Both the position numbers and the translations under genes were made by a program. From Gillisia limnaea DSM 15749 (GTDB lineage: Bacteria > Bacteroidota > Bacteroidia > Flavobacteriales > Flavobacteriaceae): DNA of 64,000 bases. Numbering within the stretch: the first letter of the stretch is position 1; every line of letters begins with the position of its first letter. The notes below the pieces were generated by a model. The model worked only from the letters and a program-made list of their open reading frames with translations, made no database searches and was not told the DNA's origin. Of the stretch, positions 4,943 through 52,825 are shown one piece after another. The stretch lies in contig NZ_JH594606.1 in the NCBI RefSeq assembly GCF_000243235.1, positions 1,626,466 through 1,690,465 of the forward strand, read 5' to 3'.

Positions 4943-5755
4943 TTATTGTGATAAAACCTGAGTAGTGTAAAATTCTTGATACGCTGAAGAAAATTCCTCC
5001 GGACTTTTATAATCCAAAACAGGCTTGTCCAGTTTGCTTAAATATTTCTTTAATTCTTCAGGGATGTTGTCGCCCGCTATAATTGCGGCATCAGAATTGT
5101 CAATAGCCGTTTTCATGATATTCACGTAATCCGGTTTCTTAAGATGCTTCACATCTTCTTCTTCCAAACCATCAAAAAGAATTTTTTTATTCATCTTCTT
5201 ATCTAACGTGCCATCAAAGCTTTGATTGTATACCGAGGTAATAATTTTGGCTTCAGAGAACAAGGGCTCTTTTCCGTAATAATTCCTGATGTACAATGGC
5301 AATAATGAAGACAACCATCCATGAACATGGATTATATCCGGAGACCAGTTAAGTTTCTTCACGGTTTCAATTACCCCTTTTGCAAAGAAAATAGCACGTT
5401 CATCATTGTCTGGAAACATATTTCCATCCTCATCAGTCAACGTGGCTTTTCTTTTAAAATAATCTTCATTATCAATAAAATAAACCTGCATTCTTTCCTT
5501 GGGAATAGAAGCAACTTTTATAATAAGCGGCATGTCCAGATCATCGATTACCAAATTCATCCCAGATAACCGTATCACTTCGTGCAATTGGTGTCTCCTT
5601 TCATTGATATTGCCATAACGAGGCATGAATATTCTAATTTGGCCTCCCAGCCCATTTACCATTCTGGCAGCATCAAAAGACATAGATGATATATCGGTTT
5701 CGGGCAGGTAAGGAATTACTTCAGATGATACGTATAATATCCTCTTATCTTTCAT
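4943..5755 (-). CDS. Single-domain glycogen/starch synthase-like protein (GT5 N-terminal domain)
   Basis: Resembles the N-terminal half of GlgA (glycosyltransferase family 5). The ATG at 5755 (MKDKRILYVSSEVIPYLPET) is preferred over the longer frame to 5785, because the family starts at this beta-strand. With it the protein is about 270 residues, whereas GlgA is usually near 480 and carries a second, ADP-glucose-binding domain that is absent here. Recognisable segments are the SSEV.PY strand, GGQIRIFMPRYGNI, and HVHGWLSSLLPLYI. The KTGG substrate loop of classical GlgA is not evident (ETDISSMSFDAARM in its place). True synthase activity is therefore doubtful. First gene of the unit with DUF4270 and glmS; divergent from panC. 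Confidence 0.75.
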   Translation of the reverse strand: MKDKRILYVSSEVIPYLPETDISSMSFDAARMVNGLGGQIRIFMPRYGNINERRHQLHEVIRLSGMNLVIDDLDMPLIIKVASIPKERMQVYFIDNEDYFKRKATLTDEDGNMFPDNDERAIFFAKGVIETVKKLNWSPDIIHVHGWLSSLLPLYIRNYYGKEPLFSEAKIITSVYNQSFDGTLDKKMNKKILFDGLEEEDVKHLKKPDYVNIMKTAIDNSDAAIIAGDNIPEELKKYLSKLDKPVLDYKSPEEFSSAYQEFYTTQVLSQ

Positions 5756-47739: not shown

Positions 47740-47904
47740 CTAATGCTGTAAAATTGATTCCATCGGTGCAAGAAATGGTTTCTCCGGAACCGTTTTGAGG
47801 GCAAATAAAATTCTATCTTCCATCACAATATCTACAACGTCTCCCGATATACGTATGGATTGAGCAATTCGCATAGCTTCATCGGTGTTTGTATCGAATT
47901 CGCG
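47740..47904 (-). pseudogene. C-terminal remnant of a homologue of the 53034 gene
   Basis: A minus-strand frame of about 54 codons that begins after a stop, has no usable 5' part, and ends KTVPEKPFLAPMESILQH with TAG at 47740. The intact minus-strand gene at 53034-53450 ends KIPKGISLIPVEAILQR, clearly similar at the last 18 residues. As with the intact gene, it converges on a copy of the 47005-type gene with almost no spacing. It is read as a truncated paralogue at the left edge of the island. The stretch 47905-48279 beyond it holds nothing recognised. Confidence 0.6.
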
Positions 47905-48279
47905 TTATGCTTATTTCAAAATAATAATTTCTTAATGCAATATGCTAGCGTTGAGTTAAGTCTGGATTATAATTACACCATTGTTCGTTTTTTGTTTGTA
48001 ATTTCCAATTACAGGAAACTTTCATTTTAAAAATACACCAAAAATTCAATCTGCTAATTTCAGAAATTAATAAATTTTCTTATACAAGTAATTGCACATA
48101 ATCTATTAGGATGTCACTTGTTTAAATTGGTGATTTCCACTGTTACCACACATTTGAAGAAATGAAATGGGAGGATTTACAAATCTGATTTATTTTAAAG
48201 AATATCTATCTGAAGAGTCAAGGGTACAGAAATTGAAAAACTAAATGGTCAGGCATTCTAGAAAACATTTATTAAAAAT

Positions 48280-49047
48280 ATGGATATTAAGAAAACAGTT
48301 CTAGTCGCTTTATCGATGCTCTTTTTCATCATTGGTTTTATGATGAGTTCTGTTCCATCAGAACAGTTTGTAGAAACTGGATCCATTATTGCCGTTAGTA
48401 TAATTTCCATACCGGCATTTTACGGCATGTGGAAAATATATAGTAGACGGGGAATTGCGGCAATTATGGCCTTGGGGGTATTTGCCTTAATTATTGAATC
48501 AATTGGGATTCATACAGGATTCCCTTATTCACCTTTTGAATATACGATGCCGTTTGGTTATAAGTTATTGGGCACAACACCGTGGACCGTATTTATTGCC
48601 TGGAGCCCGCTAGTTATTGGTGCCTGGTTACTAGCACAAACATGGTTTAAGCATCGCTGGGCACGATTTCTGGCGTACCTTGGGATTCTTGTTGGCACAG
48701 ATATTATCTTGGACCCTGGAGCCGTTGCACGCGGACTATGGGAATACACCAATGGTGGATTATGGTTCGACGTACCTCTACAAAATTTTATTGGCTGGAT
48801 TATTTCAGGAACGATTGCATATCTTATTTTGAAATTGGTTTTGAAACCTGTCATTGTGAACGGTAGCGTGGCGGTTTCAAAGCACCTCTGGATTGGCTCT
48901 CTTTCCCTTCTCCTCTCAATCTTCCTATGGACAGGAGTTGACGCAGGCTATGAATTATGGTTACCTGCGATTGTAGGAATAATCTTTGGGAATATTATAC
49001 TACAAGCATTATTTAAAATTTACGCTACAACTTCACAAAACGTCTAA
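48280..49047 (+). CDS. cruF: CruF-type carotenoid biosynthesis membrane protein
   Basis: A polytopic membrane protein of 255 residues with about seven hydrophobic segments, matching the carotenoid-synthesis (former DUF422) family that includes CruF. Landmarks are GFPYSPFEYTMPFGYKLLGTTPWTV (near 87-110, in parts), DIILDPGAVARGLWEY (near 142-157) and VPLQNFIGWIISG. CruF adds water across terminal double bonds: in haloarchaea it converts bisanhydrobacterioruberin to bacterioruberin, and in some bacteria it acts on gamma-carotene. The prenyltransferase and desaturase of the same island favour the former. The first Met fits the family start. Confidence 0.72.
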   Translation: MDIKKTVLVALSMLFFIIGFMMSSVPSEQFVETGSIIAVSIISIPAFYGMWKIYSRRGIAAIMALGVFALIIESIGIHTGFPYSPFEYTMPFGYKLLGTTPWTVFIAWSPLVIGAWLLAQTWFKHRWARFLAYLGILVGTDIILDPGAVARGLWEYTNGGLWFDVPLQNFIGWIISGTIAYLILKLVLKPVIVNGSVAVSKHLWIGSLSLLLSIFLWTGVDAGYELWLPAIVGIIFGNIILQALFKIYATTSQNV

Positions 49048-49233
49048 AATTCTCATTTATAATTACTTCTATGAGAGTTCTATAAGCTTCCACAAAAGTT
49101 TTAGGGATTTTTGTCAATTACAAAAGTAAATGCGAAATTCTATTAGTAGTGAGAAAATCACATAAGTGGTTGCTAAAGAAATACTGGTCACTCAGAACAT
49201 TTATTTGGTAGATTATTTAATTGAATACAAATG

Positions 49234-49295
49234 TATACAATTGATTAAGTGAATTATAAAGGAGAAATATATGTAAGTTTACGTGTATACAATTG
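49234..49295 (+). promoter_or_regulatory. Repeated TGTATACAATTG sites upstream of higB
   Basis: The 12-mer TGTATACAATTG occurs at 49234-49245 and again at 49284-49295, 50 bases apart, in the 328-bp gap before higB. TAATTGTATATTTG further down contains the reverse core. They could be operators for the HigA regulator, but the second copy also forms part of the left inverted repeat of the cassette. Role inferred only. Nothing else was recognised in the gap. Confidence 0.3.
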
Positions 49296-49304
49296 TTACC
49301 CTTT
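49285..49304 (+). repeat. Left inverted repeat of the HigBA cassette
   Basis: GTATACAATTGTTACCCTTT pairs, with one gap and about three mismatches, with the complement of 50055-50074 beyond higA. Nine bases (TTACCCTTT) are identical at the inner end. The pair brackets the toxin-antitoxin genes. Confidence 0.5.
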
Positions 49305-49351
49305 ATTATGAAAACACATTCGTCAATAGTTCAACATTTGAGAACTAATTG

Positions 49352-49359
49352 TATATTTG
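49352..49359 (+). promoter_or_regulatory. Candidate -7 element of higBA
   Basis: TATATTTG matches the Bacteroidota -7 consensus TAnnTTTG, 16 bases before the higB ATG. No TTTG lies at the expected -33 spacing (the nearest, at 49337-49340, is too close). Confidence 0.35.
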
Positions 49360-49375
49360 TTTCTTAATTGGATTA

Positions 49376-49672
49376 ATGAAACGAATAATTCCAAAAAGTA
49401 CGCTTCGAGAATATCGGGAAAAACAAGCTGATTCCGAACAGTATTTAAAAACTTGGTATGACACAGCAAAAAGTGCTAAATGGTTTTCACCTAACGACGT
49501 CAAACAAACTTACATCAACGCAAGTATTTTAAAGAACGGTCGAGTAGTTTTCAATATAAAAGGAAATTCTTACCGACTGATTGTTAAATTCAATTACGAA
49601 AAACAATGGGCATTTATCCGTTTTATTGGCACACACGCTGAATATGACAAAATAGATGCGGACACGATTTAA
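49376..49672 (+). CDS. higB: Type II toxin HigB (mRNA interferase family)
   Basis: A 98-residue toxin of the HigB type in the RelE/ParE superfamily, which cleaves mRNA at the ribosome. The ATG at 49376 (MKRIIPKSTLREYREKQADS) is chosen since the longer frame to 49349 adds an atypical hydrophobic leader. Diagnostic parts are WFSPNDVKQTYINASILKNGRVVFNIKGNSYRLIVKFNYE (in parts) and the terminal FIRFIGTHAEYDKIDADTI. Toxin first, antitoxin second, 9 bases apart, is the normal hig order. Confidence 0.92.
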   Translation: MKRIIPKSTLREYREKQADSEQYLKTWYDTAKSAKWFSPNDVKQTYINASILKNGRVVFNIKGNSYRLIVKFNYEKQWAFIRFIGTHAEYDKIDADTI

Positions 49673-49681
49673 AAAAAAATC

Positions 49682-50053
49682 ATGGAATTAAGGCCTATTA
49701 AAACTGACAAAGATTACCGAAATGCACTCAAACGCTTGGAAGTGATTTTCGATGCGCCAATCGACACAAAAGAGGGCGACGAGGCGGAAATACTTTCATT
49801 GCTCATTGAGAACTACGAAAACGAACATTATCCGATAGGAGCACCAGACCCAATCGAAGCGATAAAAATACGAATGGAAGAATTGAATATGCGCCAAAAG
49901 GATTTGGTAGGAATAATTGGTGGGAAAAGTCGAGTATCGGAAATCCTCAACCGAAAGAAAAGATTGACTGTCGATATGATACGAGATTTAGAAAGAATAC
50001 TTCAAATTTCGGCTTCGGTATTGGTCAATAATTATCAACTTGCGCCGAAATAA
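49682..50053 (+). CDS. higA: HigA antitoxin, XRE-family regulator
   Basis: A 123-residue antitoxin. The N-terminal part (LRPIKTDKDYRNALKRLEVI and EGDEAEILSLLIENYENEHYPIGAPDP, in parts) matches the HigA family. The C-terminal half is a helix-turn-helix: IRMEELNMRQKDLVGIIGGKSRVSEILNRKKRLT near residues 65-100. It neutralises HigB and represses the operon in known systems. Located 9 bases after higB. Confidence 0.92.
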   Translation: MELRPIKTDKDYRNALKRLEVIFDAPIDTKEGDEAEILSLLIENYENEHYPIGAPDPIEAIKIRMEELNMRQKDLVGIIGGKSRVSEILNRKKRLTVDMIRDLERILQISASVLVNNYQLAPK

Positions 50054-50054
50054 C

Positions 50055-50250
50055 AAAGGGTAATAACGTATATAAAACATAGCGCGAGTCGTTGCTAACA
50101 CAAAGGTTCGGGCATTTTTGGGAAGTCGCCAAATTTTTAAATTTGACGAATTGCCAAAAATAAAATAATTGATAAAATTTAAAAATTCGGCTTATGTTTA
50201 TCGAAACGAAAGTACCTATTTACCGCACTACGCATAAACAAACCGTTAAA
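50055..50250 (+). repeat. Structured cassette-end element after higA (attC-like)
   Basis: Part of a 408-bp gap before the prenyltransferase gene. The outer arm AAAGGGTAATAACGTATATA (50055-50074) is inverted relative to 49285-49304. Inside, a 17-bp arm at 50128-50144 pairs with 50175-50191 (one mismatch, 30-base loop). Near the end CGTTA (50244-50248) complements TAACG at the start. The long folded layout is reminiscent of integron-cassette or similar repeats seen in Flavobacteriaceae; that resemblance is recalled, not tested. No coding sequence was seen. Confidence 0.45.
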
Positions 50251-50311
50251 GGAAGTTTGTTGTTTTTTTGCTACATAGTCAATATATAGTTTTACCAATA
50301 TTTCAAACAAC

Positions 50312-50341
50312 AAAAACCCCGAAGGAATCTACGGGGTTTTT
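50312..50341 (+). terminator. Strong hairpin terminator upstream of the prenyltransferase gene
   Basis: A perfect 10-bp stem (AAAAACCCCG with CGGGGTTTTT) and a 10-base loop. Both strands end in a T tract, so it can act in either direction. It separates the HigBA cassette from the carotenoid gene that follows. Confidence 0.82.
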
Positions 50342-50461
50342 GGATTTTACATTAAATGCAAAACAACACTATTTTTTTGTTTAGCAAACAATTAAAAAAA
50401 ATAAACAAAAAAGCGTAAATTAGTGTATTTAATGATTCTATCATCTTATTTTTGCTGTGCT

Positions 50462-51313
50462 ATGAAACTGACGCTTAGAGAGGTTTTCTTTTTATCCAGA
50501 CCGAGATTCTGGATGTACGTCCTTGGAACTTTTCTTGTTGGTGTTATTTCTTCAGGAAATCTATTTTTGTATAATGATACCACTACACTTCTTTTAATAG
50601 CCTTTGGTCTATTTTTTTCCTTACCGGCTAATGTTTTTATCTACGGTGTTAACGATATCTATGATTACCAAACCGATATCTATAATGATAAAAAGATAAA
50701 ATACGAATCTGTATTAAAACTCGAAAAACATAGAAGCTTGTGGATAACCATGGCTATTCTATTAATTCCTTTTTTGCCTTTATTTTTTATGGTTAATGTA
50801 CCAACAAAACTCGCCTTAATGTTGTTTTTCTTTACGGGACTATTTTATTCCGCAACGCCTGTAAGAGCAAAAAGCAAACCACCTTTAGACGTCCTTTTTT
50901 CTGCAATTATATATGTTTCGCCTGCACTCGTTGGGTTTTTTATCACGGGAAATACTAATATACAATGGTTAGCAGTACTTGGAGGTCTTATTTGGGCCTT
51001 TGGGATGCAAACCTATTCTGCGATTCCAGATATTGAAGCAGATAAAAAAGCGGGCGTGAATACATTGGCAATTATGCTTGGTGAGAAAAGAGCTTTATGG
51101 TTTTGCTTGATAACCTATTTAATCTCTGCATCTATTGGATTTTACTATGTAGGGTTTATTGCAATCGTCTTTGGTATTGTTTATATCTCTATAGTACTTC
51201 TGAGTATAAATAATATTTCGAAACTATTTAAATATTATACCTACTTTCCACTTATCAATGTACTCACAGGAGCAGTATTGTTTTTCGATATGTTTTTTAG
51301 AGAAATACTATAG
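50462..51313 (+). CDS. UbiA-type prenyltransferase, lycopene-elongase-like
   Basis: A membrane prenyltransferase of 283 residues with about eight helices. The ATG at 50462 (MKLTLREVFFLSRPRFWMYV) gives the expected start; upstream alternatives at 50423 (GTG) and 50432 (ATG) exist. The first Asp-rich motif is YGVNDIYDYQTDIYNDKK (N..xD...D, near 76-93), the second AIPDIEADKKAGVNT (near 187-201). SRPRFW...PANVFIYGVNDI.D closely resembles lycopene elongases (haloarchaeal LyeJ, corynebacterial CrtEb), which add C5 units to lycopene. UbiA proteins of other pathways remain possible. It converges on crtI with 6 bases between stops. Confidence 0.7.
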   Translation: MKLTLREVFFLSRPRFWMYVLGTFLVGVISSGNLFLYNDTTTLLLIAFGLFFSLPANVFIYGVNDIYDYQTDIYNDKKIKYESVLKLEKHRSLWITMAILLIPFLPLFFMVNVPTKLALMLFFFTGLFYSATPVRAKSKPPLDVLFSAIIYVSPALVGFFITGNTNIQWLAVLGGLIWAFGMQTYSAIPDIEADKKAGVNTLAIMLGEKRALWFCLITYLISASIGFYYVGFIAIVFGIVYISIVLLSINNISKLFKYYTYFPLINVLTGAVLFFDMFFREIL

Positions 51314-51319
51314 TAAAAA

Positions 51320-52825
51320 CTACAAGGATTCTAAGGGTTTAGAGGTTTTAATCTTTTGAATACGTTTATAGACGAGTTCAGCCGAAATCAAACAAATAGG
51401 CATACCAATTCCCGGACTTGTACCTGCACCAACATAATAAAGATTTTTGACCTTTTTACTATAGTTTAATGGTCGTTTTAGGGTTTGTTTTAAGGTATGT
51501 GCTAATCCTAAAGCGGTGCCTTTATAAGCATTATAATCTCTTCGGAAATCATCACTCCAGTAAGACCTTTCAAACACAATATAATCTTCTATATCCGGCA
51601 GATCTAAGTCCGTTTTCATCAGATTTAAAATCTTTTGACGGTAGCTTTCCATATCAGTTTTGGAAAGTGTTAAACCCGGAGGAATTGGCACCAGAACAAA
51701 TAAATTATCAGTTCCTGGTGGCGATAAGTCCGGATCGGTTTCCGTAGGCTTACATATATAATAACTAGGATCTTCCGGAAGTTTAGGCGTATCAAACAGC
51801 TCTTTGAAATTTTGTTTCCAATCTCCACCAAAGCGTAGATTGTGATGACTTAAAATCTCTAATTCTCTATCCAAACCAAGATACATAATAAACGCACTCG
51901 GACTCAAAACTGCCTTTTCCCAATATCGTTCAGGATAGGTTTGCTGACGCTTCTCAAGTAAATGGGTTTCCGTAAACCATAAATCGGCATTAGAGATGAT
52001 CAAATCTGCTTCTACAACAGTTCCATTTTCGAGTAGAACACCCGTCGCTTCTTTGTTTTTAACTATAATTTTTGACACAGGGCTATTCGTCATAAACTGT
52101 GTACCATGTTTTTTATTAATAGTTACTAGTGCCTTTACAATCTCGTAAATACCTCCTTTAGGGTAGTAAACTCCCATATTGAAATCGATGGCATTCATAA
52201 TATTATACATGGCAGGTGTTTTTGAAGGATCTGAACCTAAAAACACCAATGTATATTCTAATATTTTTTTAACACGCTCGCTTTTAAACCATTTATTTAA
52301 ATAGGATTGCATGGTTTGAAAAGGATTGAGTTCAATCCCTTTTTTAATCACGTCCCATTTTAAAAAATCTAATGAGAACCCTAGATTTCGATACATAAAA
52401 GTATCTTTAGCCATTTCATATTGCTCCCCTGAACGTTTAAGATACTCTCTAATCTTAGGAGTGATACCTGGCTCTAACTGCTCAAAAAGAGGTAAGTCTT
52501 TACCCAGATTAGAATGGATATCGACGATGGGTAATTCCTTATCATTAGAAAAAAACACACGGTAAGATGGAGAGAGTTTTACCAAATCTAAATGTTTAGA
52601 AATGTCTTCATCGAGTAATTTAAAATAATGCTCAAATACATCTGGCATTAGATACCAGGAAGGTCCCATGTCAAACGTGTACCCCTCGGCTTCAAAAATA
52701 TTAGCACGACCACCAAGAGTGGCATTTTTTTCAATGACCGTGACGTTATACCCAGATTTAGCTAACAATGCAGCTGAACCCAGGCCTCCAATTCCGGAAC
52801 CGATAATAATGATTTTCTTTTTCAA
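51320..52825 (-). CDS. crtI: CrtI-type carotenoid desaturase
   Basis: FAD-dependent phytoene-desaturase family enzyme of 501 residues. The dinucleotide fold is IIGSGIGGLGSAALLAKSGY at the N-terminus, followed by EKNATLGGRANIFEAEGYTFDMGPSWYLMP (in parts). It ends with the family signature NLYYVGAGTSPGIGMPICLISAEL near 460-485 (in parts). It could be a phytoene desaturase (CrtI) or a 3,4-desaturase (CrtD), and sequence inspection does not separate them. The FDMGPSWYLMPDVFE block is, from memory, like haloarchaeal enzymes. Being next to an elongase-like and a CruF-like gene makes a CrtD-like role possible. Confidence 0.85.
   Translation of the reverse strand: MKKKIIIIGSGIGGLGSAALLAKSGYNVTVIEKNATLGGRANIFEAEGYTFDMGPSWYLMPDVFEHYFKLLDEDISKHLDLVKLSPSYRVFFSNDKELPIVDIHSNLGKDLPLFEQLEPGITPKIREYLKRSGEQYEMAKDTFMYRNLGFSLDFLKWDVIKKGIELNPFQTMQSYLNKWFKSERVKKILEYTLVFLGSDPSKTPAMYNIMNAIDFNMGVYYPKGGIYEIVKALVTINKKHGTQFMTNSPVSKIIVKNKEATGVLLENGTVVEADLIISNADLWFTETHLLEKRQQTYPERYWEKAVLSPSAFIMYLGLDRELEILSHHNLRFGGDWKQNFKELFDTPKLPEDPSYYICKPTETDPDLSPPGTDNLFVLVPIPPGLTLSKTDMESYRQKILNLMKTDLDLPDIEDYIVFERSYWSDDFRRDYNAYKGTALGLAHTLKQTLKRPLNYSKKVKNLYYVGAGTSPGIGMPICLISAELVYKRIQKIKTSKPLESL

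Follow-up and report, generated by a model that had tools for sequence, protein, structure and literature searches.

A probable half-molecule bacterioruberin pathway in Gillisia limnaea, with cruF on a cassette-like insert in the lyeJ leader

A 64,000-nucleotide stretch of the genome of Gillisia limnaea DSM 15749 (contig NZ_JH594606.1; the whole stretch is referred to here as the window) carries, close together, genes for a CruF-like protein (cruF), a UbiA-type prenyltransferase (lyeJ) and a CrtI-type desaturase (crtD). Our analysis indicates that this locus probably encodes a bacterioruberin pathway acting on half of a molecule, in which lyeJ and crtD form a horizontally moving unit and cruF is a cassette plugged into the leader of lyeJ. 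Because a complete cyclizing operon is present elsewhere in the genome, the product is likely to be a monocyclic C45 carotenoid and not an acyclic C50 one.

The published pigment of the strain, as named in the title of a reference, is 3''-hydroxy-2'-isopentenylsaproxanthin, a monocyclic C45 carotenoid bearing a 3-hydroxy-3-methylbutyl group at C-2'. Jejuia pallidilutea 11shimoA1, for which two loci have been described, makes 2'-isopentenylsaproxanthin, without the 3''-hydroxyl (PMC4256183). In Haloarcula japonica, according to the portions of two sources available to us (PMC11946383, PMC9410494), LyeJ combines two activities, those of an elongase and a 1,2-hydratase, CrtD is a 3,4-desaturase that was afterwards redefined as bifunctional, and CruF is a 2'',3''-hydratase. 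Exactly these reactions are needed to build the open end of the Gillisia pigment.

An initial annotation, made from the sequence alone, had reported the three genes and likened them to the haloarchaeal set. The genes are real at the coordinates it gave, the NDIYDYQTD and DIEAD motifs that it read in the prenyltransferase are present, and the likeness to haloarchaeal lyeJ, crtD and cruF was borne out by family models, neighborhoods and trees. The prenyltransferase scored 218.5 bits against the NCBIfam model PRK12875 (cutoff, 205), on which Halarchaeum LyeJ scores 397.5 bits; among 14 control genomes, this model had matches in three (Haloferax volcanii, Corynebacterium glutamicum and Deinobacterium chartae), one of them above the cutoff. 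Residues N64, D65, D68, D190 and D194 are invariant in a four-row LyeJ alignment (two haloarchaeal proteins, one Bacteroidetes relative and the window protein). Judged by its sequence, the prenyltransferase is of the lycopene elongase type (LyeJ), and its start codon is most likely the ATG at 50462, which matches that of the G. hiemivivida homologue. The desaturase scored 114.1 bits against PF01593 (Amino_oxidase) and 472.3 bits against TIGR02734 (cutoff, 238.1), and it remained under both curated 3,4-desaturase models (577.1 bits against a cutoff of 640 for CrtID and 254.8 against 500 for NF042421). The NCBIfam models nearest to the CruF-like protein are those of bisanhydrobacterioruberin hydratases, whereas the gamma-carotene 1'-hydroxylase model gave only 50 bits.

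The genome of the strain (R-8282 = DSM 15749), an isolate from an Antarctic lake, comprises 3,966,857 bp in two scaffolds, as given in the part of the genome report available to us (PMC3570806). Phytoene synthase is absent from the window, as the initial annotation had noted; crtB was found elsewhere in the genome, where an intact crtI-crtB-crtZ-crtY operon is present. Genome-wide profile searches yielded one match to PF00494, two to TIGR02734 above the cutoff, five to PF01040 and one to PF04240. By eye, a MerR-like regulator gene lies directly upstream of crtI in this zeaxanthin operon (locus L014, 9959-10858). A suspected break in the same crtI, where one TGA had been flagged, was dismissed, as the open reading frame is whole (487 amino acids) and the match extends into the stop.

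All trees were quick searches with SH-aLRT (Shimodaira-Hasegawa-like approximate likelihood ratio test) support only and were built from part of the extracted proteins. The LyeJ tree had 56 rows (52 of the 94 extracted proteins, those of G. hiemivivida and a Psychroserpens metagenome-assembled genome [MAG] not being included, plus four UbiA paralogs); the CrtI/CrtD tree had 54 of 89 extracted rows, and the CruF tree had 24 (23 of 59 plus one added). The window LyeJ belongs to a flavobacterial clade of 11 rows (support, 82) that lies among elongases of Patescibacteria and haloarchaea; the other four UbiA proteins of the genome fall outside, on long branches at positions that are not exact. Five weaker flavobacterial UbiA proteins (77.1 to 81.9 bits), considered as close relatives, formed a branch of their own with no crtD or cruF match in the 12 to 14 kb around them and were set aside. 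Flavobacterial CrtD proteins formed one clade (13 rows; support, 100) and zeaxanthin CrtI proteins another (13 rows; support, 100) on a poorly resolved backbone, so that the desaturase of the window stands outside the clade of the zeaxanthin CrtI encoded in the same genome. Two of the outcomes that the initial annotation had named as refuting it, a prenyltransferase grouping with its paralogs and a desaturase grouping with C40-only CrtI, thus did not occur. The CruF proteins of two Gillisia species and Subsaximicrobium formed one clade (support, 99), the deeper position of which is poorly resolved.

A scan of named genomes, in which 80 loci were kept of 319 confirmed stretches, revealed lyeJ and crtD to be convergent in 12 of the 13 flavobacterial loci, the thirteenth (L065) having only a partial lyeJ. 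The CrtD proteins of Psychroserpens burtonensis, Gelidibacter algens and Subsaximicrobium are 93 to 94% identical to that of the window, compared with 69 to 73% for their zeaxanthin CrtI proteins (over 327 residues only for Gelidibacter), and the corresponding values for a Flavobacteriales MAG (L038) are 92 and 52%. In Jejuia, CrtD is 85% and CrtI 71% identical (type strain LyeJ, 73%), and for Aureitalea and Kordia the figures are 81% (CrtD) and 72 to 73% (CrtI). CrtD is thus more conserved than CrtI in general, and the excess in Psychroserpens, Gelidibacter, Subsaximicrobium and L038 fits horizontal transfer; on these sequence comparisons, lyeJ-crtD would be a horizontally moving unit of some Flavobacteriaceae. 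The Psychroserpens, Gelidibacter and Subsaximicrobium strains are, like G. limnaea, Antarctic isolates. Within the genus Gillisia, lyeJ occurs in 2 of 16 genomes, the second being that of G. hiemivivida IC154, where it lies on a 39,492-base contig. PRK12875 was matched above the cutoff in 2 of 149 genomes of a family sample, and order and phylum samples (searched with a model from four sequences, E value of 1e-25) each gave 1 of 395, the G. limnaea genome itself, which suggests that lyeJ is rare. In Patescibacteria and other MAGs (L047 to L064), we saw many convergent lyeJ/crtD pairs; crtB frequently follows crtD there, and cruF is present in some. A 1.9-Mb Bacteroidetes MAG (L092 = L026, 6327-9450) carries crtD-lyeJ-cruF in the haloarchaeal order; its LyeJ and CrtD are 35 and 45% identical to those of the window, and it has a flavobacterial-type CrtB elsewhere.

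The distribution of cruF bears on the role of its product. A whole-genome search for PF04240 in 14 genomes (13 flavobacterial genomes and the Bacteroidetes MAG L092) found it in three, namely, G. hiemivivida, Subsaximicrobium wynnwilliamsii and the MAG. The genome of J. pallidilutea DSM 21165 has lyeJ-crtD and, across the whole genome, no PF04240 gene. In the genus Gillisia, 3 of 16 genomes have such a gene, the third (in the MAG G882) sitting in a different cluster, next to crtY and a desaturase gene whose product passes the C40-type CrtD model NF042421; this cluster (L122, 5852-9103) has the arrangement C40-type crtD, cruF-like gene, crtY. The presence of cruF thus matches the 3''-hydroxyl in both species with a published pigment (n = 2). 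Since Jejuia, without cruF, makes the unhydrated pigment and Gillisia, with cruF, the hydrated one, we provisionally assign CruF to the last step. Moreover, the saproxanthin of Jejuia needs a 1'-hydroxyl and no PF04240 gene was found there, so that LyeJ is the most likely source of this hydroxyl (no search was made for hydratases of the CrtC type), which would leave CruF for C-3''.

A reading of the three genes as a single old neighborhood is not supported, because cruF lies on a separate insert outside the lyeJ-crtD unit (Table 1). Upstream of cruF, positions 47860 to 48137 are 83% identical to G. hiemivivida L036 (9582-9856), and parts of the same leader align with Gelidibacter (47975-48145 with L037) and Subsaximicrobium (47913-48144 with L040), the remaining relatives showing no alignment here. 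In these three relatives the site is empty: the leader (~47.9 to 48.14 kb) joins directly onto the match of 50.24 to 50.34 kb onward, which is followed by lyeJ. In the window, the two halves are split by 2,103 bp with GTTA at both ends (core G at 48142 and 50245), ~0.2 kb upstream of lyeJ. The insert also carries, between cruF and lyeJ, a HigB/HigA-type gene pair that was missing from the initial annotation, and we found no transposase gene within it. A terminator-like hairpin (CCCCG...CGGGG, then a T run) can be read at 50325 to 50365, between the HigBA cassette and lyeJ.

Table 1. Features of the lyeJ-crtD locus, its insert and the distant cassette array (window positions unless prefixed C2 or L149)
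Feature	Position	Strand	Evidence or comment
Leader, left half of the split site	47811..48142	+	Continues straight into lyeJ in three relatives
Cassette 1, with cruF	48143..49295	+	1,153 nt, bounded by GTTA cores (48142, 49295)
cruF	48280..49047	+	PF04240 (Caroten_synth), 141.6 bits; probable C-3'' carotenoid hydratase
Probable attC of cassette 1	49196..49295	+	Short, imperfect; by eye and folding; R'' TTTGGTAG
Cassette 2, with HigBA	49296..50245	+	950 nt; start TTACCCTT (49295) exactly complemented by AAGGGTAA (50056)
HigB-type toxin gene	49349..49672	+	PF09907, 114.1 bits
HigA-type antitoxin gene	49682..50053	+	PF01381, 23.2 bits (cutoff, 23)
attC of cassette 2	50056..50245	+	Dispersed ~183-nt repeat
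lyeJ	50462..51313	+	PF01040 (UbiA), 90.7 bits; PRK12875 above cutoff; tree; probably elongates the open carotenoid end and hydrates it at 1',2'
crtD	51320..52825	-	TIGR02734; tree position distinct from zeaxanthin CrtI; convergent with lyeJ; probable 3',4'-desaturase
Integron-like cassette array	C2:1108117-1162181 (L146-L149)		~54 kb; ~0.5 Mb from the window
Tyrosine recombinase at array 5' end	L149 9260-10384 (C2:1165259-1166383)		XerA/integron-integrase model

The start of an integron cassette and the R'' arm of the attC that it carries are complementary. The ~183-nt repeat behind the HigA-type gene has nine matches in the G. limnaea genome and was matched in 8 of the 10 genomes that were searched; its single-stranded form has a slightly better fold than shuffled sequences (z = -2.03; 7 of 200 as good). 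We aligned 25 copies from G. limnaea and several other Flavobacteriaceae, 22 of which were usable, and found an exact 8-nt start/R'' complement behind a G within 2.5 kb upstream in 14 of the 22, compared with 2% on average and at most 16% over 1,000 permutations; this test supersedes an earlier, looser complementarity count (18 of 25). The HigBA cassette of the window is among the 14. An inverted-pair test of the whole window gave 11 and 12 pairs on the two strands, all of which except the HigBA pair we take as chance (inverted pairs being nearly symmetric, the plus strand is not an independent control here). In G. hiemivivida, the cruF unit is placed elsewhere (L120, 5152-6384), within a cassette array, and the cassette preceding it (start, 4280; R'', 5045) has an attC that ends exactly at 5152, where the cruF unit starts. 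Cassette insertion at GTT-type sites outside integrons has reportedly been described as attG. From their sequences, the cruF and HigBA units resemble a pair of gene cassettes that entered the lyeJ leader, one behind the other, at a GTTA core.

A larger array of this kind lies elsewhere in the G. limnaea genome. On the array strand, we counted 59 start/R'' pairs with 51 links to the next start, some of them double counted through an inner repeat (TTTTTATA), against 19 pairs and 3 links on the opposite strand and 15 pairs and no links in the reversed array; the two strands of the window gave 4 and 8 pairs and the reversed window 8, all with no links. A 7-nt version of the chain test was uninformative and was dropped (384 links in the reversed control versus 285 in the array). 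The tyrosine recombinase that flanks the array at its 5' end passed the XerA/integron-integrase model NF040815 (235.7 bits; cutoff, 220) and failed the integron model TIGR02249 (203.9 bits; cutoff, 265). Its IntI-specific stretch is missing (24 residues, compared with 67 in IntI4 [2a3v]; the search for IntI did not extend to the remainder of the genome), and we therefore call the array integron-like and not a canonical integron. Three of ten array-region proteins tested have a PF00144 beta-lactamase-type serine hydrolase domain (L147, 12998-14128; L148, 15923-17380; and L148, 18387-19484). For Bacteroidetes, the part of the IntegronFinder 2.0 report available to us (PMC9024848) mentions In0 elements known from before and a single complete integron, that of Salinibacter ruber.

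From these gene families, trees, operon, empty sites, cassette ends and pigment names in titles, we infer the reaction of each enzyme, the order of the steps and their expression as follows. Lycopene would be supplied by CrtE (assumed), CrtB and CrtI. CrtY would cyclize one end of the molecule, and CrtZ would hydroxylate that end at C-3. At the open end, LyeJ would attach a C5 unit at C-2' and add a hydroxyl at C-1', CrtD would introduce the 3',4' double bond, and CruF would hydrate the new C5 tail at C-3'' to give 3''-hydroxy-2'-isopentenylsaproxanthin, probably alongside zeaxanthin. Either cyclization or elongation could come first, and the former lyeJ leader may now drive cruF.

The initial annotation had proposed an acyclic C45/C50 product, that is, bacterioruberin-type carotenoids made from lycopene by elongation of both ends. 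The three families are indeed those of the bacterioruberin pathway, and lycopene should be on hand through CrtB and CrtI, but the genome also encodes a cyclase and a beta-ring hydroxylase in a complete cyclizing operon and the pigment that the reference title names for the strain is monocyclic, which makes an acyclic product very unlikely. Another departure from our assignment is that CruF hydrates the open end at 1',2', as happens in monocyclic C40 carotenoids, with LyeJ merely elongating; such a role is found in Deinococcus and has been proposed in Algoriphagus, as far as the available part of that report goes (PMC10784355). We regard this as unlikely, because Jejuia saproxanthin, whose structure we take from the title of a paper on a related compound, needs a 1'-hydroxyl in a species whose type strain has no PF04240 gene (with the limit on CrtC given above), and because CruF scores far lower on the 1'-hydroxylase model than on the two C50 hydratase models. 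It scarcely seems credible that the prenyltransferase serves the synthesis of quinones or heme and has come to sit beside carotenoid genes by chance: although the UbiA family is broad and has five members in this genome, the protein passed PRK12875 and groups with haloarchaeal, patescibacterial and flavobacterial elongases, the other four UbiA proteins fall outside, and crtD adjoins lyeJ in all but one of the flavobacterial loci.

The 2.1-kb insert might instead have arrived through a transposon or chance recombination, its GTTA ends being coincidental. This view can draw on the shortness of the GTTA motif, on the imperfect attC of cruF and on an insertion sequence transposase encoded on the G. 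hiemivivida contig that carries cruF. Yet the HigBA unit has its exact 8-nt start/R'' complement, the attC preceding cruF in G. hiemivivida abuts the cruF unit to the base, and the insert itself has no transposase gene, so that this origin is improbable. Several observations nevertheless weigh against a cassette-borne C-3'' hydratase. CruF is under both C50 hydratase cutoffs (TIGR03460, 124.6 bits against 154.7; NF041333, 121 against 300), and for this reason we count it as working like a bisanhydrobacterioruberin hydratase and not as a member of that family. The match between genotype and pigment extends to two species only, with type strain DSM 21165 standing in for Jejuia 11shimoA1. The putative R'' of the cruF cassette, TTTGGTAG, agrees with the complement of the cassette start at 6 of 8 bases in the window and 7 of 8 in G. 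hiemivivida, and the fold is weak (~-5 kcal/mol). Subsaximicrobium cruF, 89% identical, lacks these cassette ends, and the strict pair test, which demands CA behind R'', missed the window HigBA cassette, the R'' of which precedes a T.

Taking the half-molecule pathway and the cassette origin of cruF together, we lean slightly toward a broader picture in which cruF travels as an integron-type cassette into the lyeJ leader beside a potentially stabilizing toxin-antitoxin cassette, its gain or loss switching between plain and 3''-hydroxylated C45 pigments, and in which the arrays form a large Flavobacteriaceae system, possibly driven by a Xer-like recombinase that lacks the IntI stretch. The chemistry is already known; the assignment of CruF and the cassette origin seem new in the literature searched, in the titles and abstract openings of which we met neither CruF assigned in Gillisia (the pigment papers themselves may contain it) nor cassettes reported from that genus. 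If correct, our reading ties the published pigment of G. limnaea itself to a small set of enzymes and presents a haloarchaeal-style pathway in use on half of a molecule. The pigments of named, culturable species can readily be predicted from whether they carry cruF, and a carotenoid enzyme as cargo, together with a large Flavobacteriaceae array, would widen the known contents and hosts of cassettes.

Compared with the haloarchaeal crtI/crtD-lyeJ-cruF genes (H. japonica c0507-c0505), the Gillisia locus has the same three families, and LyeJ and CrtD are expected to perform the same open-end steps, but in Gillisia a single end of a monocyclic carotenoid is served, the genes lyeJ and crtD converge, cruF is on a separate insert, and the proteins are 31 to 43% identical to the haloarchaeal ones. 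J. pallidilutea likewise has a zeaxanthin operon plus a separate desaturase and elongase (PMC4256183) and differs in that its type strain genome lacks cruF and its pigment lacks the 3''-hydroxyl. The C40 monocyclic pathways, those of Algoriphagus flexixanthin and of the Gillisia-genus MAG cluster L122, share a CruF-family gene and a CrtD-type gene near carotenoid genes, whereas no elongase is named there; the L122 CrtD passes NF042421 (803.8 bits), unlike the window CrtD, and its CruF-like protein matches no NCBIfam model at 1e-20, unlike the window CruF. Finally, the Gillisia cassettes resemble integron cassettes and CALIN elements (attC clusters without an integrase) in their single gene unit with a 3' attC, start-R'' complementarity, GTT cores and tandem chains, and differ from them in that the flavobacterial attC reaches ~183 nt, the nearest recombinase lacks the IntI stretch, and the cargo in Gillisia is a carotenoid enzyme sited outside the array.

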